Shown here in pieces: positions 2,496-62,136 of a stretch of DNA of 64,000 nucleotides; within the stretch, counting starts at the first letter, position 1, and every line of letters begins with the position of its first letter. Made by a program: the position numbers and the translations under genes. Below the pieces are notes generated by a model that was given only the letters and a program-made list of their open reading frames with translations, did not search any database and had not been told where the DNA came from. Location of the stretch: the NCBI GenBank assembly GCA_026874595.1, contig CM049315.1:4956664-5020663 (forward strand), given 5' to 3'. The DNA comes from Sipunculus nudus. Lineage: Eukaryota; Annelida; Sipuncula; Golfingiida; Sipunculidae.

Positions 2496-2930
2496 GATCC
2501 ATTTCTTTCCTTACCATTGTTGCCATTGCACTTGAGAGACCTTCACTTTTTGTGGCATTAATACAGTTACTTGTTACATGAATAAAACACGAGTAGACAG
2601 AGAATTCATTACATGAATAAACACATTGAGACACAACAGACATTCCTGAATAATTTTTTTACCAAAATACCCTTTTGGGCCTACTTGATTTATTTACTAT
2701 AAAAATATTTTCACTCCTTTATTAAACATAAAAGGTTTAAATGAAAAGATGTGTTATCCCACAAATTACATGTAATTCTAAATGCATAAACTGTGGAGAA
2801 TTAAACATACTACAGATACAATATAATTATAGTCTCTTGCATTCCTTTCTCAAATCAGAATGGTGACAAACTATAAACTGATACTAATCTATTTCATAAT
2901 ACATTGTCACTGATTATATTTCTAGTCTGA

Positions 2931-3764
2931 TTAATGATTTGAGAACAGGTTGCCAAGATCATCTCCATAGTTCACTTGTACAATGTTTTCTAAACCTTCT
3001 TTATTCTGAGCAAAAATCTTTCCATCCCAAGACCATACTGCTTTAACTCTCTCATCTTTCTTAACCCTGTTGAATACCTCTAGCATTTCTTTACAAAGGT
3101 CATCAACAATAATGATACCTGTGTTTTTCAGCGCCTTTCTCTCTTTAATAACTGCCATTCTATCATCTCGGCTTTGGAACCGAACAATCATAGATCTTGG
3201 TTTACCTGATTTTTTCTTGCCAACTCTGTGGGCAGCATCAATTGTGTGAACTGGCACATCTACTTTAAGTTTTTCTGATATTAGTTTATGTACATTGGTT
3301 TTACAATTTTCTGCATCATGTTCAGGCAATCCAATAATCTTTAAGTTTGATTTTCGGGAGTACTGCTCATTACTGATGGCATGTTTTCTTGCCTCTTGAG
3401 CTTCCCTATTTGTTTGTACACATTCCATTTTTAAATTTGCATAGTCTTGCTCTAATTGTGACACTTTTGCTGAAAGGGACTCATTTTGTTTTTCCAGTTC
3501 GAAAACCCGTCCTTCCATTTTTTCTACATAAGCATCCAACTGAGTTTTAAATTCTTTTTTCAAGTCATTTTTCAGTTTGTCCAACATTTCACCAAGTTTC
3601 TTTTCACTGACTCCTTTGCCTGACATGGTTGCAGATTTTGTCTCACAAGCACTTAATAACTCTGACTGAAAATATTTTGTTTTCTTAATAGACAATATAG
3701 AAGAGTCTGAGGAGCTGCTTGATAGATTTGATCTTAGACGCTTCCTATCATCAAAGTCTGACAT
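2931..3764 (-). CDS. LINE ORF1 protein (L1-type RNA-binding chaperone)
   Basis: A complete 277-residue ORF starts at ATG 3764 and stops just before 2931. L1-type ORF1 proteins coat the element RNA as trimers and act as nucleic-acid chaperones in the cytoplasmic RNP. The first ~45 residues are serine- and lysine-rich. Residues about 55-130 form a long heptad-like coiled coil (KLGEMLDKLKNDLKKEF, then repeated L/V positions with many E/K/Q). An RRM-like fold follows, with NLKIIGLPEHD near residue 140 and SMIVRFQSRDDR near 190. A small C-terminal domain (TGIIIVDDL onward) ends the protein. No stop or frameshift is visible. It lies upstream of ORF2 on the same strand with a 435-base gap, longer than in mammalian L1. 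Length and domain order fit the family well. Confidence 0.85.
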   Translation of the reverse strand: MSDFDDRKRLRSNLSSSSSDSSILSIKKTKYFQSELLSACETKSATMSGKGVSEKKLGEMLDKLKNDLKKEFKTQLDAYVEKMEGRVFELEKQNESLSAKVSQLEQDYANLKMECVQTNREAQEARKHAISNEQYSRKSNLKIIGLPEHDAENCKTNVHKLISEKLKVDVPVHTIDAAHRVGKKKSGKPRSMIVRFQSRDDRMAVIKERKALKNTGIIIVDDLCKEMLEVFNRVKKDERVKAVWSWDGKIFAQNKEGLENIVQVNYGDDLGNLFSNH

Positions 3765-4303
3765 ACCAATATGTACTCAGAAACATTTAATTATTTCATG
3801 ACAAAATGATTGAGCAGGCCCAAATAAGCTGATAAGTATTACATTATATATAAATACATGTCACAATATTCTAGACAAGCAATAACACAAAAAATAACAA
3901 ACCTGATGGGTCAGCTGGTGTCTTGCCCTGGTGATATTGGAGGGCCTCACTAATAATAAAGTGACTAAAGGGAGTGCACTTGCACTGAACACAAATGAAT
4001 AGAACCAGATTGCCAAAGAGAGTGCACTCGTACCTAGAACAGGTGCATTTTGGAGCCAAAATGGTGGGGCTATTATGTTTGAGAACAGTACTCTTTTGTA
4101 ATTTTATGAATCCAAATATTTCAAAAGTTTTGATTTTTTTCCAAATTAAAACTTTACAAATTTTACAATAATAACATGGTTCATAAGAGGATACAATTAT
4201 TATTATGATTACTTGCCTGGAATGTAGTTAAAGTTAAAGATTTTTGGAGAGCTCCAGACACCCTAGCACATGCTTTCTTGTACCAGCTGACCTCCCTTCT
4301 TTC

Positions 4304-4525
4304 TACATGTGTCGACACAGCGACTTTTAAGACAATCGGAGGGTCATGGGTTCGATTCCCATACCGGATGATCCGACTTTTCTGCGAATTCTTGTGCTAT
4401 ATCTCTATGTAATGGACCAGCATGGTCATTCATGCATCTTTTTAGAATAATATATGATGCACTCCATAAAATAAGGCCATCAGTATATCACTGCTGCATG
4501 CAAAGTCGTTGTGTCGACACATGTA
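4304..4525. repeat. 24-bp inverted repeat enclosing a headless SINE
   Basis: Bases 4304-4327 and 4502-4525 are reverse complements at 23 of 24 positions. Each arm contains the 12-base palindrome TGTGTCGACACA. Between them are about 174 bases that begin with the 3' half of the same tRNA-derived SINE found intact at 4617. The structure resembles a small fold-back or non-autonomous DNA element, but no target-site duplication or transposase is visible. Confidence 0.6.
4329..4410 (+). mobile_element. tRNA-derived SINE, 5'-truncated copy
   Basis: This copy carries the anticodon-arm 3' side, variable loop, a perfect B box (GGTTCGATTCC) and the start of the SINE body (GATCCGACTTTTCTG). It lacks the A box and the whole D arm. 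It matches the complete copy at 4617 base for base over most of the T arm. Without an A box it should not be a good pol III template. Confidence 0.6.
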
Positions 4526-4616
4526 GTATGTATAATACCCTACCGTCCTTCCAGTTACGTCACTGGCTGGTCCCTATAAAAGTGTGCTGTGCTGATATAT
4601 ACAGAGAGATTGCGGA

Positions 4617-4740
4617 TACCTGTTAGCTCAGTGGTAGAGCAGACGGCCTGCAATCGGAGGGTCATGGGTTCGATTCCCATACGGGTTGATCCGACTTTTT
4701 CTGTGCATTCTAGTTCTGTACCACTTGTGACGATGATATA
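4617..4740 (+). mobile_element. tRNA-derived SINE (Ala/Cys-like head)
   Basis: The head folds as a cloverleaf: acceptor 4617-4623 with 4681-4687 (6 of 7 pairs), D arm 4626-4640, T arm 4664-4680 (5 pairs). Pol III signals are the A box TAGCTCAGTGG (4624-4634) and B box GGTTCGATTCC (4667-4677), at normal tRNA spacing. The anticodon arm pairs at only 3 of 5 positions, and position 33 is C, so a working tRNA is unlikely. If read straight, the anticodon is TGC (Ala); a one-base shift gives GCA (Cys). The body after GATCCGACTTTTTCTG is shared with the truncated copy at 4329, which marks this as a dispersed SINE. The 3' end is not defined. Confidence 0.65.
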
Positions 4741-4863
4741 ACCTTACATATTAAAAGTTTCACTGTCAGATTTAAGACGATATCCGAAGCTAATACGCAT
4801 TGACCAGGCCTCCGGTAAAAACTGATAAAATAAATTAATATATCACATCATTGTCTGTTGCCT

Positions 4864-5644
4864 ATATAGTCCATGGGCTAGGAGGGGTCACCGTGCACCC
4901 CCTCTGGGATTTTATGACATAGGTATTTTTAGATTCCCAAGTATGTCCAATTAATGAATTAAGATGGTAACATTGAATATTTTGGGAAGCACTATCCTTT
5001 TAGGCCATTTAAAGACAACCACGTCATTACTCACGACACCCGCGGACAGGTAGCCTGGATAAGGGGGTAGGGGTATGTAAATGCTTATAACTCGCTTAAT
5101 ATTTGACATATTTACTTCAAATAAAGTGCATTATGTTTGCAAATAGTGGGGAAAAGTCACTGTCAACAATAATCATATGATTGTGTTATGTATTTTTGTT
5201 GATTAAGCAATTAATCACTATACTTTTTTAATATCCAAAAAGAAAATTGAATTTAACAGCTTTTTCTTTCATTTTTCACACCAGTTGTTTATTTTCGAGA
5301 TGATGTTGCATTTTTAAATTTCTAGTGCATTAATACATTAGTTCCTGACATTCTTACAAATTCTATTGATAAACTTATGAATTTTTGACCATATACACCT
5401 GCAATGAATGACCCATTGTTAATTCTATTTTATGGAAATACTTGTTTATCAAAAAGATGTGGTGTCCCATTTTCCTCTCCAGATGCATTGATTTTCACTG
5501 TGATGCTTCCTTGATACTATGAATTGAAATTTATCTGGACCTGAAGGTGTTTATTGGTTTAAAAAATAGAAACCCTTTCTTAAGCAATTTTTAATATATA
5601 ATAATTATACAAATATAATCATATTTAAGCTATTATATATGAAC
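4864..5644 (+). repeat. ~760-bp unclassified repeat, unit A of tandem pair
   Basis: The unit opens with AGTCCATGGGCTAGGAGGGG and the quasi-palindrome GGGGTCACCGTGCACCCCC. It is followed by AT-rich sequence with landmarks GGACAGGTAGCC, GGGGTAGGGGTATGTAAATG and GCAATTAATCA. The same landmarks recur in the same order from 5645 (759 bases later) and, on the other strand, at 14.84-13.7 kb. There is no coding frame. No LTR, TIR or pol III box was recognised, so the class is unknown. Confidence 0.75.
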
Positions 5645-5941
5645 GGTCACGATGCCCCCCCCCCTAGGATTTTATGACACAGGTATTTTTAGATCCACAA
5701 ATATGTCCAGTTAATGAATTAACATTTAAACACTGATTATTGAAGGATACACTACCCTTTTAAGCCATTTAAAGACAACTGCGTCATTTTGCACCCACCC
5801 GCAGACAGGTAGCCTTGATAAGGGGGTACGGGTATGTAAATGCTCATAGCTCGCTTAATATTTGACATATTCACTTCAAATAAACTGCATTGTATCTGCA
5901 AATACTTGGGAAATTCACTGATGAAAATAATTTGGTCAGTG

Positions 5942-5994
<53 letters not shown>

Positions 5995-6350
5995 AATTAG
6001 GCAATTAATCATGATATTAATAAATAGCTTGAAAGGATACTGTTTTTAACAGCTTTTTGTAAAAGTTTTCCCAGTGCATAAATACATCAGTTCTTGACAC
6101 TTGAACAGATACTTTAACTAAAATTATGAATAATTGGCCATTTACACACTGAATGACCCTCTGTATATATGATAAATGAGGTGTTCCATTTTCCTGTCGA
6201 GATGTACTTGATTTTCATTGTGTTGCTTCCCTGATACTATAAATAGTTATTTTCCTGAACCTGAATGTGTTTATTGGCTCTAATGATAATAAGAGCCCTC
6301 TCTGAACAATATTTGAAAACAGTATTAATCACAAATAATAATTATGTGAA
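5645..6350 (+). repeat. ~760-bp unclassified repeat, unit B of tandem pair
   Basis: This is a second copy of the unit at 4864, head to tail, starting at GGTCACGATGCC with an 11-C run in place of the hairpin arm. It is more diverged: it contains a (TA)n insertion at 5943-5989 and lacks some internal sequence. Similarity to unit A fades near 6350. Confidence 0.7.
5943..5989. repeat. (TA)n microsatellite
   Basis: About 23 uninterrupted TA units lie inside repeat unit B. The matching position in the other three units has no such expansion. Confidence 0.95.
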
Positions 6351-7546
6351 ATTTCTAATAGACAGAAAATCAATCCGTTATTCTGATCAATCTGAAACAA
6401 TGTGATGAAGTTGTCCACAAAATGGAAGACCAAGTATTAACAATTTACGTACTGTGAAGATTAGTGCATTGAACCTGTATACAGTATACGTAGCGTCTTG
6501 TACCACAATATCAACACAAGGTTTCAAGTCATGTCAAAAGGAGAAAGAACAGGAAGGCATGTGCAACAGTTTCAAATATTATACAAAATTAATAATTACG
6601 GCATATACGGCTTAATAACATTATTTGGTGTTTCTTGATTTTTTAAAGAATTTATTGATTTGAATTTAATATTTTTGTTACGATTATATTGTGATGGAGT
6701 CATTAGTTACCTTTTATATTTAAATGCCTGGCCATGTCGCTTTCAGATTTTCTTGCAAGGAAATGTACTTAAAGGTTTAAATTGTAAACACATCACAGAT
6801 TCTAATCTAAATGTATATTGATGGATCAGAGCGAACACTTTTTATGGTATCTTTTCAATGCGATCGTATGTAATGGAAGGACATTGTATAGGAGTACATG
6901 TATTAACAGCAGTGAGAAAGCAGAGAAGCGGAAGTTTCACATCGACTGTACAATACAGGGAGGGGATCATATCTGTGATATTAATTGGAAAGAATCTAAT
7001 TTTAAAACGTACGTATGATTTCTGATTGTAAAAAATAAGAAAATTTACGAAGTAAACAGAGAGAAGCTAAGGGTTCTTAACAGAAATGGACAAAGCCTGT
7101 GCCTGTGCCCTTATACTGGACACAGTCTAAGGCCACTGATACCATTGAGATGACTACTAAATGTACAATCTCTGACGTCTGCATCCAAGTGTAGTATATA
7201 TTTTTGTCCTACATATTTTATTTCGGTTCAACTCAGCTTCTGTAAAATGGTGTTGTAGACATAAAAAAATTGGCATTTGATTTCACCTGTTAATGGCACC
7301 TTTTCAAAAGAAATGAGCTGTATATATATCATCCGTGAAAATTCGAGAGGACTCATCCTCTAGCTCCTATGCATTTTAGTCTTCAAGTATTCGTTTTTTA
7401 TGATGAGGCATTCTGCAATTTCAATGCCTACTCCTGAAATTATAAAACGGAAGACCATGGATATCATACTGCCTTTAGAAGATAGAGTAAAATAAACCAG
7501 TCATTCGCGTTTATACTCTTTATAAAGACAGACTCTAAGTGTTATA
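6351..7546. other. AT-rich spacer, no feature recognised
   Basis: Only short chance ORFs are present. Somewhere in its last 100 bases this stretch meets the 5' end of the CR1-type LINE, but no boundary motif or target duplication is visible. Confidence 0.5.
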
Positions 7547-8125
7547 ATGTCAGAACGATTCAACATGAATGTGAGAGACTCCTATTCCAGTGTGGCTAAC
7601 CATTTATGTGACAAGAAGATTTCTGTGTTAAGTACTAGTGGGCTCACACTTGATGATGCTTTGTCCAAACTACCAAAAACTGCAAAAGATTTGTCAAATG
7701 ATGATTGTTTAGTGGTTCAAGTAGGCACAAACAACGTTTATCGTGATGACACCCTGACCTTTGTTAACAAATACACTGACATGCTGCAAAACACTAGAAG
7801 CAGCACCAACTGTAAAATTGTCAGTTTGGCAATCCCTAAATATTTACATGACAGCATTGTAAATAGAAAAATTACCATTATAAACAATGAACTGAGAAAG
7901 AGATGTGAATCCCTTGAGAATATCATATTTTGTGACTGCTCACCACCTTTGAAAAGGTCTTACTATCGATATGATGGTATACATTTTAGTAAATTCGGCA
8001 CAATTGCAATGACCGGACAAATTGCCTCTAGCGTTCGATATTTTCAAAAATCGATGTACACTAGTGAAGACAGCCTAATGGAATCTCAAAATTTTCACGG
8101 AGATCAAACAAAAACATCCATATAA
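7547..8125 (+). CDS. LINE ORF1: SGNH/GDSL-hydrolase-like domain (N-terminally incomplete)
   Basis: A 192-residue ORF carries the later blocks of an SGNH (GDSL-type) hydrolase as found in CR1-group ORF1 proteins: the block II glycine region (STSGLTLDD), block III (VVQVGTNN, with the oxyanion Asn) and block V (YDGIHFSKFG, with the catalytic Asp-x-x-His). Block I with the nucleophilic Ser (GDS) should precede residue 1 and is absent. The frame upstream of the ATG hits a stop at 7523. The domain is thus probably inactive here, through 5' truncation or an upstream frameshift. In the family the esterase is thought to help membrane or RNP handling, but its role is poorly known. The stop TAA at 8123-8125 lies eight bases before the open frame of ORF2. 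Confidence 0.75.
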   Translation: MSERFNMNVRDSYSSVANHLCDKKISVLSTSGLTLDDALSKLPKTAKDLSNDDCLVVQVGTNNVYRDDTLTFVNKYTDMLQNTRSSTNCKIVSLAIPKYLHDSIVNRKITIINNELRKRCESLENIIFCDCSPPLKRSYYRYDGIHFSKFGTIAMTGQIASSVRYFQKSMYTSEDSLMESQNFHGDQTKTSI

Positions 8126-8132
8126 CAGATGA

Positions 8133-11100
8133 TTATTTACTAAGGAATTCAGTGGATGTGTACTCCGTCAGGTTATAAGTCCTAACGTTAGTATTACAGA
8201 ACAAACAAGCTCTCACTTATCAGATATTTATCAAGCATTACCTAGCACCAAACCAATTACACCCGATAATGAAATTCCACCCTCTCTTCCTTCTATTTTG
8301 TCTCAAAACCCAAGTATATATTCTGATTTTAAGCAATATCGACTAGCTAACCAGGGTACCATATTAGGTCATCTTAACGTTCGTAGTTTGCTACCCAAAA
8401 TAGAGGAGATTCGCCTCTTGTGTTCTAGTTTAAACCCTCATGTTTTATCATTAACAGAATCATGGTTAGATAACCACGTTTTTGATTCAGAGATACAAAT
8501 TGATGATTATACGATTTTTAGATCAGACAGGAATCGGCATGGCGGAGGAGTTCTCACGTATGTGTTATCGTCGTTAAAACCGGAGTTGGTCACTTTAAAC
8601 TCAAATGTCGTTGAATGTGTATGGGTTAAAATAATTTTGGGGAGAAAACCGGTCTTAATCGGTTCTATATATAGACCGCCTAATTCCAGTTCCAGTTACA
8701 TTGATGAATTACTCGATTTACTTGCTTCTGCCCTTAACTCATTCAAACATGTTGTATTACTTGGCGATTTCAATGTAGACTGCTTACGCTCTGAAACTTA
8801 TATTGCTAGTAAACTGGACTTGCTCGAAAAAATCTTAGGTCTTAAACAACTTGTAACAGAGCCTACTCGTATTACTCAGCTCACCTCTACAATGATCGAC
8901 TTGATATTTTCTTCACATCCTAGCATGCATTCAAATGTGAAAGTTCATCCTTTATGTATAAGTGATCATTTTCTTGTGACTACCGTTTTGAATAGACCAC
9001 CTAGGGTCACAGTTACAAAATCTGGATATTACCGTACCCTTCGTAAATTCAATGAATACAAATTTATCGATGAATTATCGAAATCCAATTTTTTTTCAAG
9101 AATTATGCAACTTTCTGATGTAAACTTAGCCTGGGAAATGTGGCGCTATGAATTTCTGAGAATTTCTAATAACAACGCGCCTTTTATTCGACGTCGCACC
9201 AAAGCTCGCGAAAATAAATGGTTCAATAATGATTTACTTAATGAGATTCACTTGCGTGATTATGCACATCGGAACGCATTAAGAACAAATCACAGTAATG
9301 ACTGGTCTGCGTACCGACATCAGCGAAATTATGTTACAAATCTTATCAGATCCACTCGTAGACAGTATTATGCCACGCTGATACAAAAAAATGGCTCCAA
9401 CCCTGGTTGTGTGTGGAAAGCTTTAAAACACATACTGCCTTCGAAAACCTCCTCGAATAAAGAAAGCGGAAAGATTGACCCTGATAAATTTAACCATTAC
9501 TTTACTTCTGTTGGAAAAAATATTAACGATAAATTTCCGAAAACAATATTTACCTGCGATCATATTGGTAACCCGAATTTGGAATCTTTTGATTTTATTT
9601 CAGTTTCGAGTCAATTTGTTTTATCACAGTTGTTGAAAGTAAACTCCAGTATGAAAGAAGATATACTGGGAATGTCAGGATTTTTCCTTAAGATAGCCGC
9701 ACCTTATATTTCAGCTCCATTAGCCCACATATTTAACATCTCACTTCAAACCGGCGAGTTTCCAGCAGATTGGAAGACCGCTAGGATCACTCCTATATAC
9801 AAAGGATCTGGATGTAAGGATGATCCAAATAACTACCGACCGATCTCAGTTATAGGCCATGTGCCAAAAATAATAGAACAATTCGTTAAATCGCGCCTCA
9901 TTACGTTTTTTGAAAGTAATAATCTGTTTTCGGATAAACAATTCGCTTATCTTCCTAATCGTTCAACTTCATTTGCCTTGCACAGCATAATTGACGAATG
10001 CTTAATCAGTCTTAATAACAATAATGTTACCGCCGCATGTTTCCTCGATGTAAAAAAAGGTTTTGATAGCCTTGATCATACTGTCTTACTTACAAAAATG
10101 AGCGACTATGGCATAAAAGGTGTACCGCTTATGTGGTTCGAAAACTACCTATCTAATCGTAAGCAAGTGGTTTATTCTAATGGATTGCTTTCAGAACCAC
10201 GCACCTTGGACATAGGTACCCCACAGGGCACTGTCCTTGGACCTATATTTTTCCTTTTTAATCTAAATGATCTTCCAATGTTCCTCAGTGAGAAATGCGT
10301 CATTTATGCTGATGATATTTCAATTTATTCTTCAGCGAATTCAGCCGCTAAAGCTATAGAGTCATTACAAGTAAATCTCGAAATTGCACTTAAATGGTTT
10401 AGAGAGAATCGACTGAGTATAAATCCCCAAAAATCATCATTCATACTATTTGGCCCCAAGTCTAAAACCAATGGAAATCAACTGAACATTTCCATGGATA
10501 ACATAACAGTGATGCCGGTTGAACACACAAAGCTTTTAGGTGTTATCATCGACGCTGGTCTTACATGGAAAAAACATATTCAACTGGTGTGCGACAAAAT
10601 AGTATCAAAACTAGGTCTCCTTTTCAGATTAAGTAAAACCTTAGATGTCTTTAGCTTAAACACACTTTACAATGCCTTAATTCAGAGTCACATTGATTAT
10701 TGTATATCTGTCTGGGGTAATTCCTCCAAAACGTATTTATTACAACTCCAAAAACTTCAAAATAGAGCTGCTAGAATCGTTACTAAAACTTATGATACCA
10801 ATATATCCTCTACATCATTGATTGCAACATTGGGTTGGATGAATGTTAAACAGAGATACCAATATTTTGTTTCTTTAATGGTCTTTAAATGTTTGTCTGG
10901 TAATGTCCCTCCCTTTCTTACGCATACGTTCAACCGTGTTAATAGTGCATATAATACTCGTTTTTCTCAGGGCTTCAATTTATCATTACCTAAACCAAAC
11001 AGAGAATCCTTCAAAGCAAGTCTTGCATATGCTGGTCCCATCCACTGGAATTCTTTACCTGTAAGTGTCAAATCTGCAACCAGTCTCTGCCAGTTTAAAT

Positions 11101-11138
11101 CATTGTACAAGCAATTTATGCCATATAATTTTTCATAG
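8133..11138 (+). CDS. LINE ORF2: endonuclease and reverse transcriptase (CR1 group)
   Basis: A single open frame of about 1,000 codons follows the in-frame TGA at 8130. Numbered from 8298, the endonuclease spans residues ~22-235 with GHLNVRSL, LTESWLD, GSIYRPPN, LLGDFNVD and SDHFLV, so all the catalytic positions I can see are kept. The RT spans ~465-720: NYRPISV, FLDVKKGFDSLDH (motif A), GTPQGTVLGPIFFLF (motif B) and YADD at 10304-10315. The C-terminal part has LQKLQNRAARIV and GPIHWNSLP, typical of CR1-group proteins. The frame is uninterrupted, which suggests a recent insertion. Oddity: no in-frame ATG occurs before 8892, inside the endonuclease. Translation would need reinitiation or a non-AUG start, so the 5' coordinate marks the open frame, not a known start. 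Confidence 0.88.
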   Translation, partial: LFTKEFSGCVLRQVISPNVSITEQTSSHLSDIYQALPSTKPITPDNEIPPSLPSILSQNPSIYSDFKQYRLANQGTILGHLNVRSLLPKIEEIRLLCSSLNPHVLSLTESWLDNHVFDSEIQIDDYTIFRSDRNRHGGGVLTYVLSSLKPELVTLNSNVVECVWVKIILGRKPVLIGSIYRPPNSSSSYIDELLDLLASALNSFKHVVLLGDFNVDCLRSETYIASKLDLLEKILGLKQLVTEPTRITQLTSTMIDLIFSSHPSMHSNVKVHPLCISDHFLVTTVLNRPPRVTVTKSGYYRTLRKFNEYKFIDELSKSNFFSRIMQLSDVNLAWEMWRYEFLRISNNNAPFIRRRTKARENKWFNNDLLNEIHLRDYAHRNALRTNHSNDWSAYRHQRNYVTNLIRSTRRQYYATLIQKNGSNPGCVWKALKHILPSKTSSNKESGKIDPDKFNHYFTSVGKNINDKFPKTIFTCDHIGNPNLESFDFISVSSQFVLSQLLKVNSSMKEDILGMSGFFLKIAAPYISAPLAHIFNISLQTGEFPADWKTARITPIYKGSGCKDDPNNYRPISVIGHVPKIIEQFVKSRLITFFESNNLFSDKQFAYLPNRSTSFALHSIIDECLISLNNNNVTAACFLDVKKGFDSLDHTVLLTKMSDYGIKGVPLMWFENYLSNRKQVVYSNGLLSEPRTLDIGTPQGTVLGPIFFLFNLNDLPMFLSEKCVIYADDISIYSSANSAAKAIESLQVNLEIALKWFRENRLSINPQKSSFILFGPKSKTNGNQLNISMDNITVMPVEHTKLLGVIIDAGLTWKKHIQLVCDKIVSKLGLLFRLSKTLDVFSLNTLYNALIQSHIDYCISVWGNSSKTYLLQLQKLQNRAARIVTKTYDTNISSTSLIATLGWMNVKQRYQYFVSLMVFKCLSGNVPPFLTHTFNRVNSAYNTRFSQGFNLSLPKPNRESFKASLAYAGPIHWNSLPVSVKSATSLCQFKSLYKQFMPYNFS

Positions 11139-18270: not shown

Positions 18271-19243
18271 TTAATCAAAGGTTTAGCCACAGCAGAAACA
18301 TTTAGACTGTAGTATCCAACCATACCAAGAAAATGCATAATTTGCTTTTTTGTTTTCTGGTCTAGGAAATGCAGAAATAGCACTTATCTTAGCATCAACA
18401 GGTTTTACCTGACCCTGCCCTAAAATATGACCCAAAAATGTTACTTGTGCATGTCAAAACTCAGATTTTACTAAGTTGACGGTCAGACGTGCTTCGCTGA
18501 GTCTTTCGAAGAGGTCGTGAAGAATTTGCAGATGTTTCTCCCAGAAGTCGCAGTATAAGGTCATCAATTTATGCGTCGCAGCCCTGAATGTCCTTGACAA
18601 CCGTATCGATGAGACGCTGGAACATGGCTGGCGAGTTTTTCATGCCAAACGGCATAACTTTATACTGGTACAGTCCTTGCGGCGTCACAAATACGGACAC
18701 TTTTTTCGCTCGTTCTGTCAGCGGAACTTGCCAGAATCCTTTTGCAAGTCAAACTTGGAGACATATCTGGAGCTACAGACTCTATCAATACAATCATCGA
18801 TGCTCGGAATCGGGAACGTGTCAGTCTTGGTGACAGAGTTCAGTTTTCGATAATCTGTGCACATACGGTAACTTCCATCAGGTTTTGGCACAAGAATACA
18901 TGGTGAACTCCAGTTACTGTTACTAAGTTCAATAAAATCATTGTCCAGCAAATATTGAATCTCATCCTGTAGATACTTTTGTTTTTCTGGATTCAGTCTA
19001 TATGGATGTTGCTTGACTGCGATTGCCTCGCCAACATCGACGTCATGGCACAACATACCAGTTAGCGTTGGAATGTCACCAAACAAATGTTCATAATTCC
19101 GCAACAGGTTCTTGAGGTCTTGTTGTTGTTGTGCGGCAACGTATGACAGTTTGCCATCCAGGTTGTTAAGCACGTCTGAGTTCCTTAATTGTACTGTACC
19201 ACACTGAATGACCTCTGCAACTAGGTATTTGGTCGTTACATTG
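18256..19243 (-). pseudogene. Reverse transcriptase segment of the Gypsy element, inverted
   Basis: This is the RT domain that should lie on the plus strand after gag, but it reads on the minus strand. From about 19240 downward it gives the protease-RT linker (CGTVQLRNSDVL), then the RT N-terminus (GEAIAVKQHPYRLNP, NSNWSSPCILVPKPDG, CTDYRKLNSVT, SKFDLQK). After a frameshift near 18735 it continues with QYKVMPFGMKNSPAMFQRL, the active-site region, and the thumb (FLGHILGQGQVKPVDAKI). In the catalytic Y-I-D-D box the tyrosine codon is TAA, so the enzyme is terminated at its active site. Further stops follow. The neighbours on both sides (gag, integrase, LTRs) are plus strand, so the segment was inverted after or during insertion. 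Confidence 0.85.
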
Positions 19244-19246
19244 TTG

Positions 19247-19458
19247 ACAAGAAAGTCAGTGATTTAAATTACATACTGTTGACACCAGATCGCCTAAAGA
19301 AGAAACAACTGTGCCATGTTAACATGTGGAAACCATATTATGAGAGAAATAGCACATCAGATGTTGGACATAATGTTACTGCTGTAAATTGTGTAAACAC
19401 TGACCCTGACCCAGTTGAAGTAGATACTGATTGTAAGTGTGATGTATACAGTAATTAA
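19247..19458 (+). pseudogene. Integrase C-terminus of the Gypsy element
   Basis: Plus-strand frame with KKVSDLNYILLTPDRLKKK followed by QLCHVNMWKPYYER. This is the conserved end of Ty3/Gypsy integrases, which insert the cDNA into the host genome. It stops at TAA 19456. The zinc-binding and catalytic core domains are absent. It joins the inverted RT segment within a few bases at about 19243-19247. Confidence 0.75.
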
Positions 19459-29454: not shown

Positions 29455-31408
29455 TATAGAACGGCGGCAGTGTATAACCGCTGTGTGAGGAGTGGCGGCA
29501 GTTTATAACCGCTGTGTGAGGAGTGGCGGCAGTGTATAACCGCTGTGTGAGAGGCAGTGTATAACTGCTGTGTGAGAAGTGGCGGCAGTGTATAACCGCT
29601 GTGTGAGGAGTGGGGGAAGTGTATAACTGCTGGGTGAGGAGTGGCGGCAGTGTATAACCGCTGTGTGAGGAGTGGTGGCAGTGTATAACTGCTATGTGAG
29701 GAGTGGCGGCAGTGTATAACCGCTGTGTGAGGAGTGGCGGCAGTGTATAACCGCTGTGTGAGGAGTGGTGGCAGTGTATAACCGCTGTGTGAGGAGTGGC
29801 GGCAGTGAATAACCGCTGTGTGAGGAGTGGCGGCAGTGTATAACTGCTGGGTGAGGAGTGGCGGCAGTGTATAACCGCTTTGTGAGGAGTGGCGGCAGTG
29901 TATAACTCCTGTGTGAGGAGTGGCGGCAGTGTATAACCGCTGTGTGAGGAGTGCCGGCAGTGTATAACTGCTGTGTGAGAAGTGACGGCAGTGTATAACC
30001 GCTGGGTGAGGAGTGGTGGCAGTGTATAACAGCTTGTTGAGGAGTGGCGGCAGTGTATAACCGCTGTGTGAGGAGTGGTGGCAGTGTATAACTGCTGGGT
30101 GAGGAGTGGTGGCAGTGTATAACCGCTATGTGAGGAATGGTGGCGAGTATAACTGCTGGGTGAGGAGTGGTGGCAGTGTATAACCGCTGTGTGAGAGGTG
30201 GTGAAATTGTATAATTGCTGGGTGAGGAGTTGCGGCAGTGTATAACAGCTTGTTGAGGAGTGGCGGCAGTGTATAACCGCTGGGTGAGGAGTGGTGGCAG
30301 TGTATAACTGCCGGGTGAGGAGTGGTGGCAGTGTATAACTGCTGGGTGGGGAATGGTGGCAGTGTATACCTGCCGGGTGAGGAGTGGTGGCAGTGTGGTG
30401 GCAGTGTATAACTGCTGGGTGAGGAGTGGCGGCAGTGTATAACTGCTGGGTGAGGAGTGGCGGCAGTGTATAACAGCTTGTTGAGGAGTGGCGGCAGTGT
30501 ATAACTGCTGGGTGAGGAGTGGCTGCAGTGTATAACTGCTGGGTGAGGAGTGGCGGCAGTGTATAACAGCTTGTTGAGGAGTGGTGGCAGTGTATAACTG
30601 CTGGGTGGGGAGTGGTGGCAGTGTATAACTGCTGGATGAGGAGTGGTGGCAGTGTATAACTGCTGGGTGAGGAGTGGTGGCAGTGTATAACTGCTGGGTG
30701 AGGAGTGGTGGCAATGTATAACTGCTGGGTGAGGAGTGGTGGCAGTGTATAACTGCTGGGTGAGGAGTGGTGGCAGTATATAACTGCTGGGTGAGGAGTG
30801 GTGGCAGTGTATAACTGCTGGGTGAGGAGTGGCGGCAGTGTATAACAGCTAAGTGAGGAGTGGCGGCAGTGTATAACCGCTGTGTGAGGAGTGGTGGCAG
30901 TGTATAACTGCTGGGTGAGGAGTGGTGGCAGTGTATAACCGCTGTGTGAGGAGTGGTGAAATTGTATAATTGCTGGGTGAGGAGTTGCGGCAGTGTATCA
31001 CGGTTTATTGAGGAGTGGCGGCAGTGTATAACCGCTGGGTGAGGAGTGGTGGCAGTGTATAACTGCTGGGTGAGGAGTGGCGGCAGTGTATAACAGCTTG
31101 TTGAGGAGTGGCGGCAGTGTATAACTGCTGGGTGAGGAGTGGTGGCGGTGTATAACTGCTGGGTGAGGAGAGGCGGCATTGTATAACTGCTGTGTGAGGT
31201 GTGGCGGCAGTGTATAATTGCTGTGTGAGGAGTGGCGGAAGTGTATAAATAATGGGCGAGGAGTGCCGGCAGTGTATAACCGCTATTTGAAAAGTGACGA
31301 CAGTGTATAACTGCTGGGTAAAGAGTGGCGGCAGTGTATAATTGCTGGGTGAGGAGTGGCGGCTGTGTTTAACTGCTGGGAGATTAGTGGCGGCAGTGTA
31401 TAACCGCT
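29455..31408 (+). repeat. 31-bp minisatellite, about 63 units
   Basis: The unit is read as GAGGAGTGGCGGCAGTGTAT plus AACCGCTGTGT. Variants differ mainly at CGG/TGG, CCGC/CTGC and TGTG/GGTG. Some units carry the variants ACAGCTTGTTGAGG or GAAATTGTATAATTG. A stretch of several units is duplicated (30192 and 30950 start the same variant series). A minus-strand frame is open for almost 500 codons with a 31-residue period, which only means that the unit has no stop in any minus frame. The right end is cut by a LINE 3' tail. Confidence 0.9.
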
Positions 31409-33845
31409 GTTTTTTTGTTTTAAATATAACATTTATTTTGACAAAACATAAACAATACCAATACATATACTCAGAAAACATTACAAAGTCAAAGTATTAC
31501 AAAATTAATACATGTATCTTGGAAAAGAGCAGCATTACATGTCAGACAAAATGCAACAATGACAAAATATAAAAAGTGGGAATGGGGGTGGGGGAAATAA
31601 TAAGGAAAAAAAATTACAAAAAGCACATCAAGGGAAAAAATAAAAAAAAAATAAAAAAAAAAAAGATGCATATTCCTATATACATGGATTCACACATATA
31701 TTCTACATATACAAATACATATTATATGCACAGATATCCAAATATAAACCGAGTTAAAATTTAGAGATACCCCATTTTTCATTAAGTACCTCCAGTTCGT
31801 CTTTTTTTCTGCAATATGTTTTTCAATTTCATAAATCTTTTTTGCATAATTGATACCATCCAATGCTCTTGGTTTCACTTCTTTACATCTACATGTATAC
31901 AAGTATTTTTAAAAATGAGCAATATGAGATTTAATATATCATACTCCTTGACATCCAATATCACTAGCTTTAAGTCCAATATTATTGTTTGATCTCTCAT
32001 TTTCTTGTTAAACCAACAGGCTAATTCGGACCAATATCCTTGGGTAATAGGGCATTCCCAAAACAAATGTGTCAATGATTCTCTTCCTTCTTCACAAAAA
32101 GAACAAGTCTCCTTATCTTCGAAACCAATTTTGAATAAAAATGTATTTGTTGTTAATATTCTATGTATCAAATTAAACTGAAGTATCCTTAGGGTTGTAG
32201 ACTGAGTAAGCTTCACTATATGCAAAAAGGAATTAAGGATATATTTTTTTTGAGTCATATTCAATATTTAGGTCGCTTGTCCATTTTCTTAATATTCTTT
32301 CGGGTTCTACATATAAAGGTCTGAACAGTTCATTGTGTGCAATTTTTGTCACTTTTTCCACCTTAAACAATTGGGAAAATTTACTTATATAATTGTCATC
32401 TTCATTTGTATGCAATAAAATTTTTCTTTCCACTCTCTCGGAATCGAATCCAATAATCCTCTGTATTCAAGAATATTAACTTTTTCAACCCTCAGGCAGA
32501 TTTCTTCATATCTAAGAAATTTCTTAATATCATCTCCAGTTAATAAGTCAGTTAAGCAGTAAATTCCTGCATTTATCCAGTATTTATAAAATAATGGTTT
32601 ATTATCCACCCGAACATGTGAGTTCAACCAGATATTCTGATTACCAATTTCTGTTACTCCTTTGACTTGGTCTTTATAATTGTATGCACACAATGATTGT
32701 AGAACATCTTTCCAGAAGGTATTTGTGTTTACATAACTATATCGTACATCCTCTTTGGCCAAATTACATTTAATCCTCTGATCATACTAAGTACGTCTTG
32801 TTTATATTCTTCGGTGTCCAAGCGACTTTCAAAGATGTTATGTAAGTTCTAGGATGGACCATATTAAGGTCTCCATTGTCATATGATGAAATTAAAGATT
32901 TCTTTTTAATTTTATCTGGCTTGTTGGACCATATGAATCTAAACAGTCTCTGTTCAACAATATTTATAAAATCATCATCAGGTGTAGGCAATACTGAAAA
33001 TAAATATGTAAGCTGTGATAACCCAAAAGTTTTAAGAATTGTAATTTTTCCAAAAACACATCTGTTATTTCTTTTTCACTGACTGAAGTATTCATTAACA
33101 TGTTTTGTTCTTTCGAAACTTTTTGCATTGGCTGTACCTGTGCTAGTAATTCTGTGATACTGTGTACATTTCCTTTCGAAAAAATTGTTTCATATAAGTT
33201 TTTAGAGAATTCTTTAGCTGTTTTTATTATTTCCTTTTGAATGTCTGACAATGACCCATCTACAAGCCTTAATTTGTGTATCTTTTTTGCATTGTAGTTT
33301 CTTTTTTCCAAATTGAGTAAATATTTAGTGGACTTCTCACCTTGTTCATGCCATCTTGTTTTACATCGGATTATGGCTCCGTCTGTTTTCTCCTGTATCA
33401 TCTTTTCTAGTTTATCTTTAGTGTTTTGGTATGCTATGTCATCACTACCATTTAACGCTTTCAGGATTTTTAATTTTCTTTCAAGTATTTGTATTTCATT
33501 TTTCCTTTTTCTTGCTTTTTCAATTCCAAATTTAATGCTTTCCCTTCTAATGTACATTTTCATGGTTTCCCACAGCAGCAGAGGGTTTGTTCCCGGATTT
33601 TCTTCAACTGCACCTTAATTGTTTTATTCATAAGTTTTATATAATCATTTTTCTTTTAATAATGAAGAGTTTAATTTCCACAAGCCAGGACCCTTTTGGT
33701 TTACTGAAGTTCGTATGCCTAAAGTTTTTGCACTGTGATCAGATTTGTAGTTTGGCAGGATGTCAGTGTTCACACAGTTATTAATTAGACCTTGTGATAC
33801 CACAAAGAAGTCAAGGCAGCAGTGTACTGGCTGTGGCTGCTTTCT
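31409..33845 (-). mobile_element. Second Tx1/L1-type LINE copy, RT deleted
   Basis: On the minus strand: end of the endonuclease, linker, a jump over the RT, the post-RT region, the cysteine motif, and a 3' UTR ending in an A-rich tail (CAAAAAAACAAAAT at about 31409). Frames are broken several times. The protein differs clearly from the copy at 1-3764, so it is another family of the same clade. It ends exactly at the last unit of the 31-bp minisatellite. Confidence 0.8.
31875..33845 (-). pseudogene. LINE ORF2 remnant with internal RT deletion
   Basis: Endonuclease end: WSRKQPQPVHCCLDFF, then NYKSDHSA and GPGLWKLNSSLLKEK (33830-33650). Linker: TRWHEQGEKSTKYLLNLEKRN (split here only by an internal Met start near 33563). 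The frame reaches EKEITDVF near 33060 and then enters FGKITILKTFGLSQL in another frame. The latter normally lies after the RT, so motifs A to D and the catalytic FADD box are gone. Next come the post-RT FIWSNKPDKIKKKSLI region, a frameshift near 32780, the WKDVLQ region, and near 32080 the cysteine motif CSFCEEGRESLTHLFWECP, intact. It cannot make an active protein. Confidence 0.8.
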
Positions 33846-36164: not shown

Positions 36165-37435
36165 AGCTCGTGGGCCGTTGGTCATGGGTCAGCTGCTTGT
36201 GTGTCGTTGGTCATGGGTCAGCTGCTTGTGTGTCGTTGGTCATGGGTCAGCTGCTTGTGTGTCGTTGGTCATGGGTCAGCTGCTTGTGTGTCGTTGGTCA
36301 TGGGTCAGCTGCTTGTGTGTCGTTGGTCATGGGTCAGCTGCTTGTGTGTCGTTGGTCATGGGTCAGCTGCTTGTGTGTCGTTGGTCATGGGTCAGCTGCT
36401 TGTGTGTCGTTGGTCATGGGTCAGCTGCTTGTGTGTCGTTGGTCATGGGTCAGCTGCTTGTGTGTCGTTGGTCATGGGTCAGCTGCTTCTGTGTCGTTGG
36501 TCATGGGTCAGCTGCTTGTGTGTCGTTGGTCATGGGTCAGCTGCTTCTGTGTCGTTGGTCATGTGTCAGCTGCTTGTGTGTCGTTGGTCATGGGTCAGCT
36601 GCTTGTGTGTCGTTGGTCATGGGTCAGCTGCTTGTGTGTCGTTGGTCATGGGTCAGCTGCTTGTGTGTCGTTGGTCATGGGTCAGCTGCTTGTGTGTCGT
36701 TGGTCATGGGTCAGCTGCTTGTGTGTCGTTGGTCATGGGTCAGCTGCTTGTGTGTCGTTGGTCAACAGCTCGTGTGTCGTTGGTCATGGGTCAGCTGCTT
36801 GTGTGTCGTTGGTCAACAGCTCGTGTGTCGTTGGTCATGGGTCAGCTGCTTGTGTGTCGTTGGTCAACAGCTCGTGGGTCGTTGGTCATGGGTCAGCTGC
36901 TTGTGTGTCGTTGGCCAACTGCTCGTCGGTTCGTTGGTCAGTCGCTTGTTGGTCGTTGGCCAACAGCTCATGGGTCGATCGTCTTGGGTCAGCAGCTTGT
37001 GGGTTGTTGGTTAACACTTCGTGGGTCATTGCACGTGAGTCAGCAGTTTGTGGGTCGTAGGTCAACAGCTCGTGGGCCGTTGGTCATGGGTCAGTTGCTG
37101 GTTGGTCGTTGGTCACCAGCTGGTGGGTCGTTGCTCATGGGCGAGCAGTCATTAGGTCTTGGGTCGCAGCTTGTGGGTCGTTTGTCAACAGCTCGTGGGC
37201 CGTTGGTCTTGGGTCAGCAGCTTGTGGGTCGTTGGTCAACACTTTGTGGGTCATTGCACGTGGGTCAGCAGCTTGTGGGTCGTTGGTCAACAGCTCGTGG
37301 GCCGTTGGTCATGGGTCAGTTGCTGGTTGGTCGTTGGTCACCAGCTTGTGGGTCGTTGCTCATGGGCGAGCAGTCCGTAGGTCTTGGGTCACAGCTTGTG
37401 TGCCGTTAGTCTTTGGTCGTGGATTAGCAGCTTGG
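36165..37435 (+). repeat. 29-bp minisatellite with degenerate higher-order part
   Basis: Bases 36176-36760 hold about 20 nearly identical 29-base units (CGTTGGTCATGGGTCAGCTG plus CTTGTGTGT). From 36760 units alternate with a shorter variant (GGTCAACAGCTCGTG). From about 37061 a ~225-base composite block is repeated (GTCAACAGCT at 37061 and 37286). All three plus frames are open for hundreds of codons because the unit lacks stops and 29 is not a multiple of three; this is not a gene. Confidence 0.9.
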
Positions 37436-38281: not shown

Positions 38282-38364
<83 letters not shown>

Positions 38365-38367
38365 GGA
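38282..38367. repeat. (TA)n(GA)n compound microsatellite
   Basis: TA run 38282-38326 followed by GA run to 38367. It borders the hammerhead ribozyme on its 3' side (minus-strand sense). Confidence 0.95.
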
Positions 38368-38370
38368 ATC

Positions 38371-38446
38371 AAATTTCGTCAGACATTTTTACTACTACGT
38401 AGTTTCGTGCACTCATCAGGTAAGACTGTCTGGTTGAAGGAAATTT
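38371..38446 (-). ncRNA. Type I hammerhead ribozyme (self-cleaving RNA)
   Basis: Minus-strand RNA, 5' to 3'. Stem I 5' arm is 38432-38420 (CAGACA, GTC, TTAC). The core CTGATGA is at 38419-38413. Stem/loop II is GTGCAC at 38412-38407, very short. GAA follows at 38406-38404. Stem III is the self-complementary ACTACGTAGT at 38403-38394. The cleavage base A is at 38393, giving a GUA triplet. The stem I 3' arm is 38392-38380 (GTAA, AAA, TGTCTG). Stem I thus has perfect 4-bp and 6-bp helices around a 3x3 internal loop, as type I motifs use for loop-loop contacts with stem II. An outer helix AAATTTC/GAAATTT (38446-38440 with 38377-38371) can extend it. All the conserved core bases are present. Such ribozymes are known from Penelope-like elements and retrozymes; no RT or GIY-YIG frame is recognisable here. 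The weak point is the minimal stem II. Confidence 0.8.
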
Positions 38447-38682
38447 TATGTATTGTTGGCCATCATTGGTTACGTAATGGTTATAGGTTATCCGGTACGT
38501 TTGCTGCTCATTATTACTGAACGACAAAGTACAAGATGCTGCTGTCTGGAAAAGGCACAGTTATGGATAAGGGATCAAACGTATATTGTTGTTGTACAAC
38601 AGTTGTCGGTGTCCAGGTGTGGCAGGTGATGTTTTATCAAGGACATTTCCTGATCAGCATTAGAAACGGTTTTATTGTTAAT
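38447..38682. other. Sequence upstream of the ribozyme, unassigned
   Basis: On the minus strand this is the 5' flank of the ribozyme. No coding frame, LTR or pol III box was recognised. Confidence 0.4.
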
Positions 38683-39143
38683 ATTTTTATGAGTGCGGGG
38701 GGATCATTATGTTGATTTTAACGGCATATCAGGATCGAATTGCCCAAAGACATTTTTCGGCCCATCAGGGCTATAATTAATCAACAGGGGTGAGCCAGGC
38801 AAAAACCCCAGAGTGGGCAAGCATTCAAACCACCAAATAACACCGTCTGTTGACATGATTACAAATTCCTAATTAATAACTTTGTGACATAAAGAATAGG
38901 CCTGCTTATTATATTTTTCTTTTCTTTCATTCTTTCGTTCATTATGGTCGAATGAGGTTAACCATGGACAGGCCCCGCATTGTTTGGCGGCTTGAATGCT
39001 TTCCCGCTCTGGGGCTTTTGCCTGGCTTGCCCCTATTTATTAATTATAGCTCTCATCGGCCCCAAAAATGTCTTCGGGCAATTCGATCCTGATATGCCGT
39101 TACAGTCAACATTTTGATTCCACCCCCGGCTCATAATAATAAA
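38683..39143. repeat. Long-armed inverted repeat (fold-back/MITE-like)
   Basis: Left arm 38690-38838 and right arm 38976-39135 are reverse complements with scattered mismatches and small gaps (about four in five bases agree by eye). Shared blocks include ACGGCATATCAGGATCGAAT, GACATTTTT, CTATAATTAAT, GCCAGGCAAAA and GCATTCAA. Both outer ends start TTATGAG. The spacer is about 135 AT-rich bases. No ORF. It is either a fold-back DNA element or two copies of one repeat head to head. Confidence 0.7.
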
Positions 39144-40050
39144 ATCAATATCTAGAATTCTAGAATACGCCGCCTACCTATTGTACTATCATCTTGAAAC
39201 ACCCATATCAACAGAGGAAGTTATCTGCAATACTACGTGCACTCAACCGTCCGCCATTTTGGATGTAACGTATGCTTCTCCTATAGATATCAGCTTTGCT
39301 GTGACGTGGGGAACTATCTCCACCTGAAGGAGCTGATTGTTTACAGTAATTTGCCCTCTTCGCTGATGAGCGGAAACAGTCTCAAAATAAATGATAACCT
39401 GATATTTGCTTGTCTCGCTTATCGGTGCATGCTTCAGTGATAGTTGTTATTACAACAAGCGAAAGAAGAGCGCATCCCTTCTGAAAGATATTTCGAGGAT
39501 TGGACTACAACCTTTGTTAAAACTGACGGTGGTTGCACTCAAACGTTGTCACGCAACTCCACTGCTCGTTTGTCTTTAACTGTCAGGAAAAAGGTTAAGT
39601 GTATCTTATGGGGGTTTCATTTTTTCATTTTCCCCATAAACCCCAAGGAATTGCTAATAGGGGCTACCGAAGCGCCATGTATCAAAGACATCGAAAGTGT
39701 ATTCAGCTCTTTTCATGGAAACCTGGCCCAGTGCGAACTCGGTCTTAGGAAATTCCATTCAAGACGGAGTCGCGCTGACTGGTCCCTGATAATAAGTGGA
39801 AGAAGTCGGTTCATCTAAATAATTATCAGGGATCATGATATAACATAGAAGGACCAGACACAATCACACACCGCTGTATTGTCAGCTAATGGGATTTGTG
39901 TTCTCTGGCGTTAAGCGACTCAGGCCTGTGGGAATTTACAACAAAGTATTTCAATTTGGATATATAAATTTATCTATCGTTTGATATCCTAATCAAAGAC
40001 CAAAGTCTGTTTGTCCTTCTTGTGTCTTTCTATTTTTCGCCCACCCCCAC
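39144..40050. other. Spacer with unassigned ORF 39444-39818
   Basis: A 124-codon plus-strand frame without a recognisable domain spans most of this stretch; chance or a repeat fragment. Nothing else seen. Confidence 0.35.
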
Positions 40051-40082
40051 TTTCTCTCTCCTTCCCTCCCTCCTCTCTCTCT

Positions 40083-40158
<76 letters not shown>
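40051..40158. repeat. (CT)n(AT)n compound microsatellite
   Basis: CT-rich 40051-40120 followed by AT 40121-40158. Frames across it give S-L and Y-I repeats only. Confidence 0.95.
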
Positions 40159-40164
<6 letters not shown>

Positions 40165-60137: not shown

Positions 60138-60138
60138 T

Positions 60139-62136
60139 CACACATGTCACCTCACCATGCCAGGACAACCAAACAAAAGTATTCATTGAATACCATATAT
60201 CACCTCACAGACAATTAAACCAACATGGTCGTCAACTAAATACATCACAAATGTCACCTCACCGTGCCAGGATAACCAAACAAAAGTATTCATTGAATAC
60301 CTTATATCACCTCACAGACAATTAAACCAACATGGTCGTCAACTAAATACATCACGAATGTCACCTCACCGTGCCAGGATAACCAAACAAATGTATTTAT
60401 TGAATGTCATGTATCACCTCACAGACACTTAAACCAACATGGTCGTCAACTAAATGCATCACAAATGTCACCTCACCGTGCCAGGATAACCAAACAAAAG
60501 TATTCAATGAATACCATATATCACCTCACAGACAATTAAACCAACATGGTCGTCAACTAAATACATCACATATGTCACCTCACCGTGCCAGGATAACCAA
60601 GCAAATGTATTTATTGAATACCATATATCACCTTACAGACAATTAAACCAACATGGTCGTCAACTAAATACATCACAAATGTCACCTCACCGTGCCGGGA
60701 TAACAAAACAAATGTATTTATTAAATGTCATGTATCACCTCACAGACAATTAAACCAACATGGTCGTCAACTAAATATATCACAAATGTCACCTCACCGT
60801 GCCAGGATAACCAAACAAAAGTATTCATTGAATACCATATATCACCTCACAGACAATTAAACCAACATGGTCATCAACTAAATACATCACACATGTCACC
60901 TCACCGTGCCGGGATAACCTAACAAATGTATTCATTGAATACCATGTATCACCTCACAGACAATTAAACCAACATGGTCGTCAACTAAATACATCACACA
61001 TGTCATCTCACCGTGCCAGGATAACCAAACAAATGTATTCATTGAATACCACGTATCACCTCACAGACAATTAAACCAAAATGGTCATCAACTAAATACA
61101 TCACACATGTCACCTCACCGTGCCAGGATAACCTAACAAATGTATTCATTGAATACCATGTATCACCTCACAGACGATTAAACCAACATGGTCATCAACT
61201 AAATACATCACAAATGTCACCTCACCGTGCCAGGATAACCAAACAAATGTATTCATTGAATACCATGTATCACCTCACAGACAATTAAACCAAAATGGTC
61301 ATCAACTAAATACATCACACATGTCACCTCACCGTGCCAGGATAACCTAACAAATGTATTCATTGAATACCATGTATCACCTCACAGACAATTAAACCAA
61401 CATGGTCATCAACTAAATACATCACACGTCACCTCACCGTGCCAGGATAACCAAACAAATGTATTCATTGAATACCATGTATCACCTCACAGACAATTAA
61501 ACCAAAATGGTCATCAACTAAAAACATCACACATGTCACCTCACCGTGCCAGGATAACCTAACAAATGTATTCATTGAATACCATGTATCACCTCACAGA
61601 CAATTAAACCAACATGGTCATCAACTAAATACATCACACATGTCACCTCACCGTGTCAGGATAACCAAACAAATGTATTCATTGAATACCATGCATCACC
61701 TCACAGACAATTAAACCAAAATGGTCATCAACTAAATACATCACACATGTCATCTCACCGTGCCAGGATAACCTAACAAATGTATTCATTGAATAACATG
61801 TATCACCTCACAGACAATTAAACCAACATGGTCATCAACTAAATACATCACAAATGTCACCTCACCGTGGCAGGATAACCAAACAAATGTATTCATTGAA
61901 TGTCATGTATCACCTCACAAACAATTAAACCAACATGGTCGTCAACTAAATACATCACACATGTCACCTCACCGTGCCAGGATAACCAAACAAATGTATT
62001 CATTGAATACCATGTATCACCTCACAGACAATTAAACCAAAATGGTCATCAACTAAATACATCACACATGTCACCTCACCGTGCCAGGATAACCAAACAA
62101 ATGTATTCATTGAATACCATGTATCACCTCACAGAC
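60139..62136 (+). repeat. 107-bp satellite array, about 19 units, with higher-order structure
   Basis: The unit contains GTCACCTCACCGTGCCAGGA, TAACCAAACAAATGTATTC, CACCTCACAGACAATTAAAC and GGTCATCAACTAAATACATC. Starts fall every 107-108 bases (60145, 60253, 60360, 60467...). In the first part variant units with GAATGTC recur every third unit (ORF starts 60404 and 60725 are 321 apart). From about 61000 to 61850 two unit types alternate four times (ACCAAAC with CCAAAATGG, then ACCTAAC with CCAACATGG). The last unit stops inside CACAGAC and unrelated DNA follows. No protein is expected; frames over it are repeat translations. Confidence 0.92.

Follow-up and report, generated by a model that had tools for sequence, protein, structure and literature searches.

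The type I hammerhead motif on the minus strand at 38380..38432 of the 64,000-nucleotide stretch of Sipunculus nudus DNA analysed here (the window) is, in all probability, the pseudo-LTR (pLTR) hammerhead of a Penelope-like element (PLE), present in the window as a dead, 5'-truncated and partly inverted copy. The first-pass annotation of this DNA had reported a hammerhead without a recognisable host element, which might mark an undescribed non-autonomous element. Neither statement held, since the flanks of the motif are the 3' region of a PLE, of which longer and tandem copies carrying an ORF are found in the same genome. A candidate 'orphan' ribozyme is thereby removed and linked to an element of which at least one copy (locus L073) has an open ORF, with near-identical pLTRs.

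Read on the minus strand from 38432 to 38380, the motif comprises CAGACA GTC TTAC CTGATGA GTGCAC GAA ACTACGTAGT A GTAA AAA TGTCTG, with CTGATGA at 38419-38413, GTGCAC at 38412-38407, GAA at 38406-38404, ACTACGTAGT at 38403-38394 and A17 at 38393; the cut is predicted between 38393 and 38392. CUGANGA, GAA, helix III, H17 and helix I are all present in type I order, and stem I results from pairing of 38432-38420 with 38392-38380, giving 4+6 bp on either side of a 3x3 internal loop. The order of the conserved elements, the architecture of stem I and the assignment to a type I core of the animal retroelement kind had thus been read correctly from the start. Scanned for type I hammerhead structures, the 64-kb window returned these positions as its single match, and 60 Markov shuffles yielded 21 loose matches, none of which combined a stem I of at least 4 with a stem III of at least 3 pairs. 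One further string, CTGATGAGCGGAAAC near 39369, was rejected: it is core-like, but helix II would be restricted to 3 nt. An additional outer AAATTTC/GAAATTT helix, regarded earlier as possible, does appear in the centroid of the window copy, but its 5' strand AAATTTC is absent from the 17 other copies compared.

Helix II of the window copy (GTGCAC, 38407..38412, minus strand) falls 10 nt short of the 16-nt form found in related copies and offers room for little beyond one closing pair and a UGCA loop. No stable helix II was obtained for this copy with ViennaRNA: the hammerhead fold reaches -5.2 kcal/mol, 7.8 kcal/mol above an MFE structure of -13.0 kcal/mol that lacks the hammerhead, and 13 of 200 shuffles of the native strand fold equally well or better. 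The designation as a 'complete' hammerhead had to be dropped on these grounds, while the doubt voiced at the same time about the very short stem II proved justified. Because helix II is shortened, the window copy is probably an impaired one, and efficient cutting by this copy alone is unlikely. The Rfam covariance check suggested for the region gave weak agreement below the threshold: searched in 121 nt, RF00163 scored 19.5 bits (E 0.013), compared to a gathering score of 34; a scan of the whole window at gathering gave a tRNA only and no hammerhead. Other copies scored 15.4, 17.2 and 13.8 bits with RF00163, and none of 20 loci gave a hammerhead at gathering. In three longer helix II forms (L041, L038 and a majority string), helix II can extend to 6-8 bp and the hammerhead fold lies 1.8-2.5 kcal/mol above the MFE. 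L041 and L038 are in addition predicted to dimerise as a double hammerhead sharing a 10-bp helix III, which holds for two of the three forms, the core of L041 being altered by GGA in place of GAA. When six copies were folded singly, helix II formed in all six and the full hammerhead was the MFE structure in none. In alignment A1 of 31 copies, one cell changed on both sides, which is no more than in shuffles and stems from a weak test, with a single family and mostly decaying copies, and RNAalifold predicted zero pairs for the same alignment; the structure is therefore argued from the universal core instead. The hammerhead stands partly confirmed: the motif is real in form, and its cut site is a predicted one.

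Copies elsewhere in the genome had been proposed as a check, and they were found. A 221-nt query against the 1.43-Gb assembly, for which 40 of 678 first-look candidates were scored, gave at least 102 matches that include many simple repeats; 39 stretches were retrieved for comparison. A hammerhead profile run against 45 loci (the window, L009-L047 and five more) produced 53 matches with at least one per locus, a result which is no independent test because these loci had been picked by element match. Besides the window, the motif is thus present at 44 examined places, in the 3' part of the PLE. Approximately full length was reached by 40 of the 53 profile matches, and 25 passed the strict core expression. 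Among these 25 core-intact copies, a helix II of 16 nt is the commonest (11 copies), followed by 19 nt (six) and 6 nt (three: the window, L021 and L027), with 4, 12, 13, 14 and 18 nt occurring once each; hence, 18 of the 25 have 16-19 nt, and GTGCAC is a minority short form. L022 likewise carries GTGCAC, in a changed core. Most simply, the short helix II would be explained by a 10-nt deletion from GTGC[AACATGTTGC]AC. That the window motif resembles a hammerhead by chance, without ever having been a ribozyme, is close to negligible as an explanation: it would fit the sub-gathering Rfam score, the weak fold and the lack of covariation, but not the complete absence of equally strict matches from the 60 shuffles, the strict core kept in 25 of 53 related matches, or the longer forms with their 6-8 bp helix II and small energy gap. 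As a separate observation, a longer palindrome overwrites the hammerhead core at L023:2491-2572 on the plus strand (TTGTTAGGGC...GCCCTAACAA).

The host was traced through the sequence upstream of the hammerhead, where homology extends over approximately 250-300 nt in many pairs of copies, 767 nt in L010/L017 and about 990 nt in L048/L051 (longest about 1,000 nt). In L051/L066 and L052/L067, the homologous stretch carries decayed frames resembling the C-terminal part of a Penelope ORF. One L067 frame matched Pfam GIY-YIG at 20.4 bits (E 6.5e-4), which is 2.2 bits short of the cut-off of 22.6, and neither the L066 frames nor the second L067 frame gave a Pfam GIY-YIG match. When the L066 coding region was used as a DNA query and 40 of 233 candidates were scored, copies of about 79% identity were obtained, including a pair separated by 2.66 kb on contig C12 (the L072 locus). 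In element orientation, L072 consists of a hammerhead at 3562-3645, ORF frames at 3757-5899 (one stop, one frameshift) and a second hammerhead at 6227-6310; the two same-strand hammerheads flank the frames at a distance of 2,665 nt and belong to a direct repeat of 99.4% identity. L073 shows the same layout, with a hammerhead at 1295-1379, an open 715-aa frame at 1491-3638 and a hammerhead at 3962-4046, about 2.67 kb from the first, the pLTR copies being 99.4% identical across 487 nt. Direct repeats around an ORF, i.e. pLTRs, are therefore present in both loci, and the tandem arrangement that had been suggested as worth searching for is found in them, with a same-strand hammerhead in each pLTR. 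L074 has a single hammerhead; at L074:3658, the ORF end is fused to the sequence just 3' of the hammerhead, the remaining 3'UTR and the second ribozyme being skipped.

The L073 frame contains TLKDHKPNF, FDVVDFYPS, YRDDGLG, a C-x-C...C...H-C cluster, SYIGLTENSFKSRYANH and CNLCLWEK, which we read as RT-, CCHH- and GIY-YIG-like (C-terminal) motifs of PLEs. In profile searches, one L072 frame matched retron_St85_RT at 16.5 bits (E 0.0039; cut-off 235), Pfam and NCBIfam gave neither an RT nor a GIY-YIG match for the full L073 ORF and the 554-aa L074 frame, Pfam gave no GIY-YIG match for the endonuclease part of L072, phmmer with the full L073 ORF against PDB sequences returned nothing, and a profile comparison with GIY-YIG proteins was not significant. 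Several candidates were set aside, namely PDB matches of an 82-aa frame to influenza hemagglutinin (E 0.057 or worse, taken as chance), sub-threshold Pfam matches to unrelated families, and a genome search with PF01541, which gave 12 matches among 38 candidates, one of them weak and on C7 and the other 11 on small contigs, none of which led to the present PLE. Membership in the PLEs consequently rests mainly on layout, and on this footing the host is very probably a Penelope-like retrotransposon. Alternatively, the motif could belong to a non-LTR retrozyme of the kind known from animals, in which short tandem repeats without coding capacity spread as a ribozyme-made small circular RNA. Retrozymes share with the present family a type I hammerhead in a mobile element as well as AT-richness and dispersal, and they are common in animals according to the available part of PMC7229834. 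The same text, however, describes them as small non-coding tandem repeats, while the window showed no non-coding hammerhead tandem units of 150-450 bp, the hammerheads of L072 and L073 lie about 2.67 kb apart with an ORF in between, and a common 3' region extends upstream for approximately 250 nt in many copies and for about 1,000 nt in the longest. This makes a retrozyme very unlikely.

With a PLE as preferred host, the surroundings of the window motif can be interpreted. Homology to the family covers 38366-39173 in two orientations and holds no ORF. The first piece, 38366..38841 on the minus strand, is a 5'-truncated part of the PLE 3' region corresponding to element positions -534 to about +85, and the second, 38841..39173 on the plus strand, is an inverted part of the same region (element about -681 to -328); identity to L048-L052 is approximately 61-76%. 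Overlapping and opposed, the two pieces form a long inverted repeat. On the minus strand, the element ends in ...GATTCC(CT)n(TA)n as in L009-L013, and the (TA)n(GA)n tract at 38282..38365 has its counterpart in the same arrangement in L009, L010, L011, L012 and L013; from this we infer that (TA)n represents the target and (CT)n a tail expansion. The first-pass annotation had placed the motif between this tract and a long inverted repeat. Both are indeed there; the repeat consists of two opposed PLE 3' pieces, and most of the copies compared are located at (TA)n. At 40053..40164, a (TC)n(TA)n tract mirrors the left one as simple repeat; it was considered as a second PLE end and set aside, as no PLE match was found in 39173-40052 and 39150-40052 is nearly unique (nine matches, i.e. 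itself and eight of 38-175 nt). The window copy is read as a dead product of the PLE insertion process.

The ends of such insertions were compared using a pLTR-end model of 244 positions, in which CTGATGA occupies 87-93 and the cut falls at 126/127, and which matched 63 arms across 48 loci. Most of these loci were retrieved by hammerhead or 3'-region queries, which favours cut-spanning arms and hence biases the sample. Of 63 arm ends, 35 lie at 160-178 near TATAATTATA, 22 at 229-241, past a stretch with a GCTCTGG...CATAGAGC hairpin, and six elsewhere. For 45 of these ends, a (TA)5 lies no more than 60 nt away, compared to a random background of 4.7% (5,000 stretches of 60 nt from the same loci, window excluded); three of the 18 ends without a nearby (TA)5 are upstream pLTRs continuing into the ORF. 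An AT-rich target and 5' truncation, both expected of PLEs, are observed. Two opposed arms occur in 12 of 48 loci, at most 11 of which are independent as L014 and L019 have common flanks, and all 12 combine one short end (160-174) with one long end (229-241). A 'tail' of about 65 nt is consequently confined to one arm in each of these 12 loci, which is a described PLE trait. Palindromic inserts of this type, i.e. (TA)n, two opposed 3' ends and (TA)n, might also be conceived as a non-autonomous MITE-like family spreading alone by means of PLE proteins. Such a family would be in line with the 12 two-arm loci and with the fact that almost nothing separates the arms in some of them (L013, L027, L040), the arms being non-adjacent in L014, L019, L023 and L054. 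Junction positions vary by locus, however, and no junction is common to any two of the 12 apart from L014/L019, which have similar arm starts and flanks in common; moreover, the same arrangement is normal in PLE insertions, as described in the accessible text of PMC3846280. A MITE-like family is therefore very unlikely, and ordinary PLE insertion remains the preferred reading.

Regarding the role of the ribozyme in insertion, 58 arms start before the predicted cut, and 54 of them end at position 160 or beyond, i.e. at least 34 nt past the cut, three of these being upstream pLTRs followed by the ORF (L072, L073, L074). Of the remaining four arms, those of L025, L045 and L046 end at 128 and that of L055 at 134. 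L025, L045 and L046, which have one flank in common and were counted as one event, thus end 2 nt past the cut; after model position 128, they continue into TCACCACAAGAACC, and possibly they represent a copy of cut RNA. As 54 of 58 arms pass at least 34 nt beyond the cut, the inserted RNAs were mostly uncut at that ribozyme; the inserting template is RNA that the 3' ribozyme has left intact, as shown by the ends of the genomic copies. This argues against a simple '3'-end trimming' role for the hammerhead. In the mechanism proposed here, tandem PLE units would be co-transcribed into an RNA carrying one ribozyme per unit, and the hammerhead of each unit could cut, alone or as a dimer via the palindromic helix III, to give unit lengths. 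Uncut RNA would anneal to an opened (TA)n at TATAATTATA, approximately 34-48 nt past the cut, or at the tail about 65 nt further, and reverse transcription from both ends would then lead to truncated or head-to-head insertions. Whereas the anatomy of the insertions is directly visible in the genomic copies, the steps of cutting, priming and two-ended synthesis are ones that we infer from the PAc and Penelope papers.

A different kind of influence may be considered from the starts of the more truncated arm in the two-arm loci, which lie at model positions 33 (L011), 95 (L013), 177 (L014), 180 (L019), 23 (L023), 114 (L026), 107 (L027), 127 (L030), 115 (L037), 95 (L040), 124 (L041) and 140 (L054). 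Seven of the 12 start inside the ribozyme (95, 95, 107, 114, 115, 124, 127), that of L030 exactly at the cut, which is a lead only, since arm starts are approximate local alignment ends and the loci were partly chosen by their ribozyme. The hammerhead might accordingly shape insertion, instead of or besides transcript processing, if its fold stops reverse transcription or cleavage ends the template and thereby sets the start of the shorter inverted arm; we consider this doubtful.

Hammerheads in the pLTRs of PLEs are already known (PMC7761336, PMC6155905 and PMC11167929, each in the portion available), and the PLE hammerheads of Cervera and de la Pena (2014) and Lunse et al. (2017) are summarised in the corresponding passages of PMC7761336 and PMC6155905. 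Their role is 'still a mystery' in the words of one review (PMC7761336, available passages). According to these passages, the known forms are minimal and usually devoid of helix III and loop contacts, with a type I core in tandem pLTRs and a short or palindromic helix III suiting dimers. The present family resembles them in the latter traits and differs from the minimal form in its 16-19 nt helix II in 18 of 25 core-intact copies and the 3x3 internal loop of stem I, its helix III being a 10-nt palindrome (3 bp with an ACGU loop; as a dimer, 10 bp between the two RNAs). With its longer palindromic helices II and III, the family varies the 'minimal' form as it is outlined in the available literature. 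For PAc, an Anolis PLE studied in vitro (PMC11167929, text in part), it is reported that reverse transcription begins internally, at a site linked to the tail, and that RNA which has not been processed serves as main template; a ribozyme assisted by protein is likewise reported for PAc. PAc and the present family have in common a hammerhead near the ORF start, an internal 'tail' start, AT-rich targets and an unprocessed template; unlike in PAc, the target is mostly (TA)n here, and the ribozyme does not overlap the ORF start, its end being separated from the open frame by about 110 nt. For Penelope, inverted pLTRs are described whose orientation is mostly head-to-head and of which one bears a 'tail' (PMC3846280, partial text). 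The endonuclease-containing Penelope elements of Adineta vaga described there likewise show pLTRs, partial tandems, head-to-head inverted pLTRs and a one-arm tail, which measures 31 bp compared to approximately 65 nt in the present family; the word hammerhead is absent from the text of PMC3846280 available. Among the titles and abstracts listed by a literature search, which did not extend to the two primary PLE-hammerhead papers, none names a family of this kind, the family itself being without a searchable name.

Some further features were noted in the window and the assembly. Open frames of 414, 446, 199 and 1001 aa at 1-2510 (minus strand) and 7526-11138 (plus strand) look LINE protein-like by eye, and a 181-aa frame at 18718-19263 (minus strand) resembles a Ty3/Gypsy RT fragment, likewise by eye. 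Large minisatellite arrays are located at 29463-31409, 36176-37411 and 60138-62136, with main periods of 31, 29 (and longer) and 107, respectively. A tRNA-like sequence at 4617-4688 (plus strand; 44.9 bits) could be a gene or the head of a SINE. Of the PF01541 (GIY-YIG) matches mentioned above, nine with 48.6-49.6 bits fall in bacterial UvrC-like frames of 621-637 aa on small contigs in the range from C61 to C89, and these are possibly bacterial contigs within the assembly.
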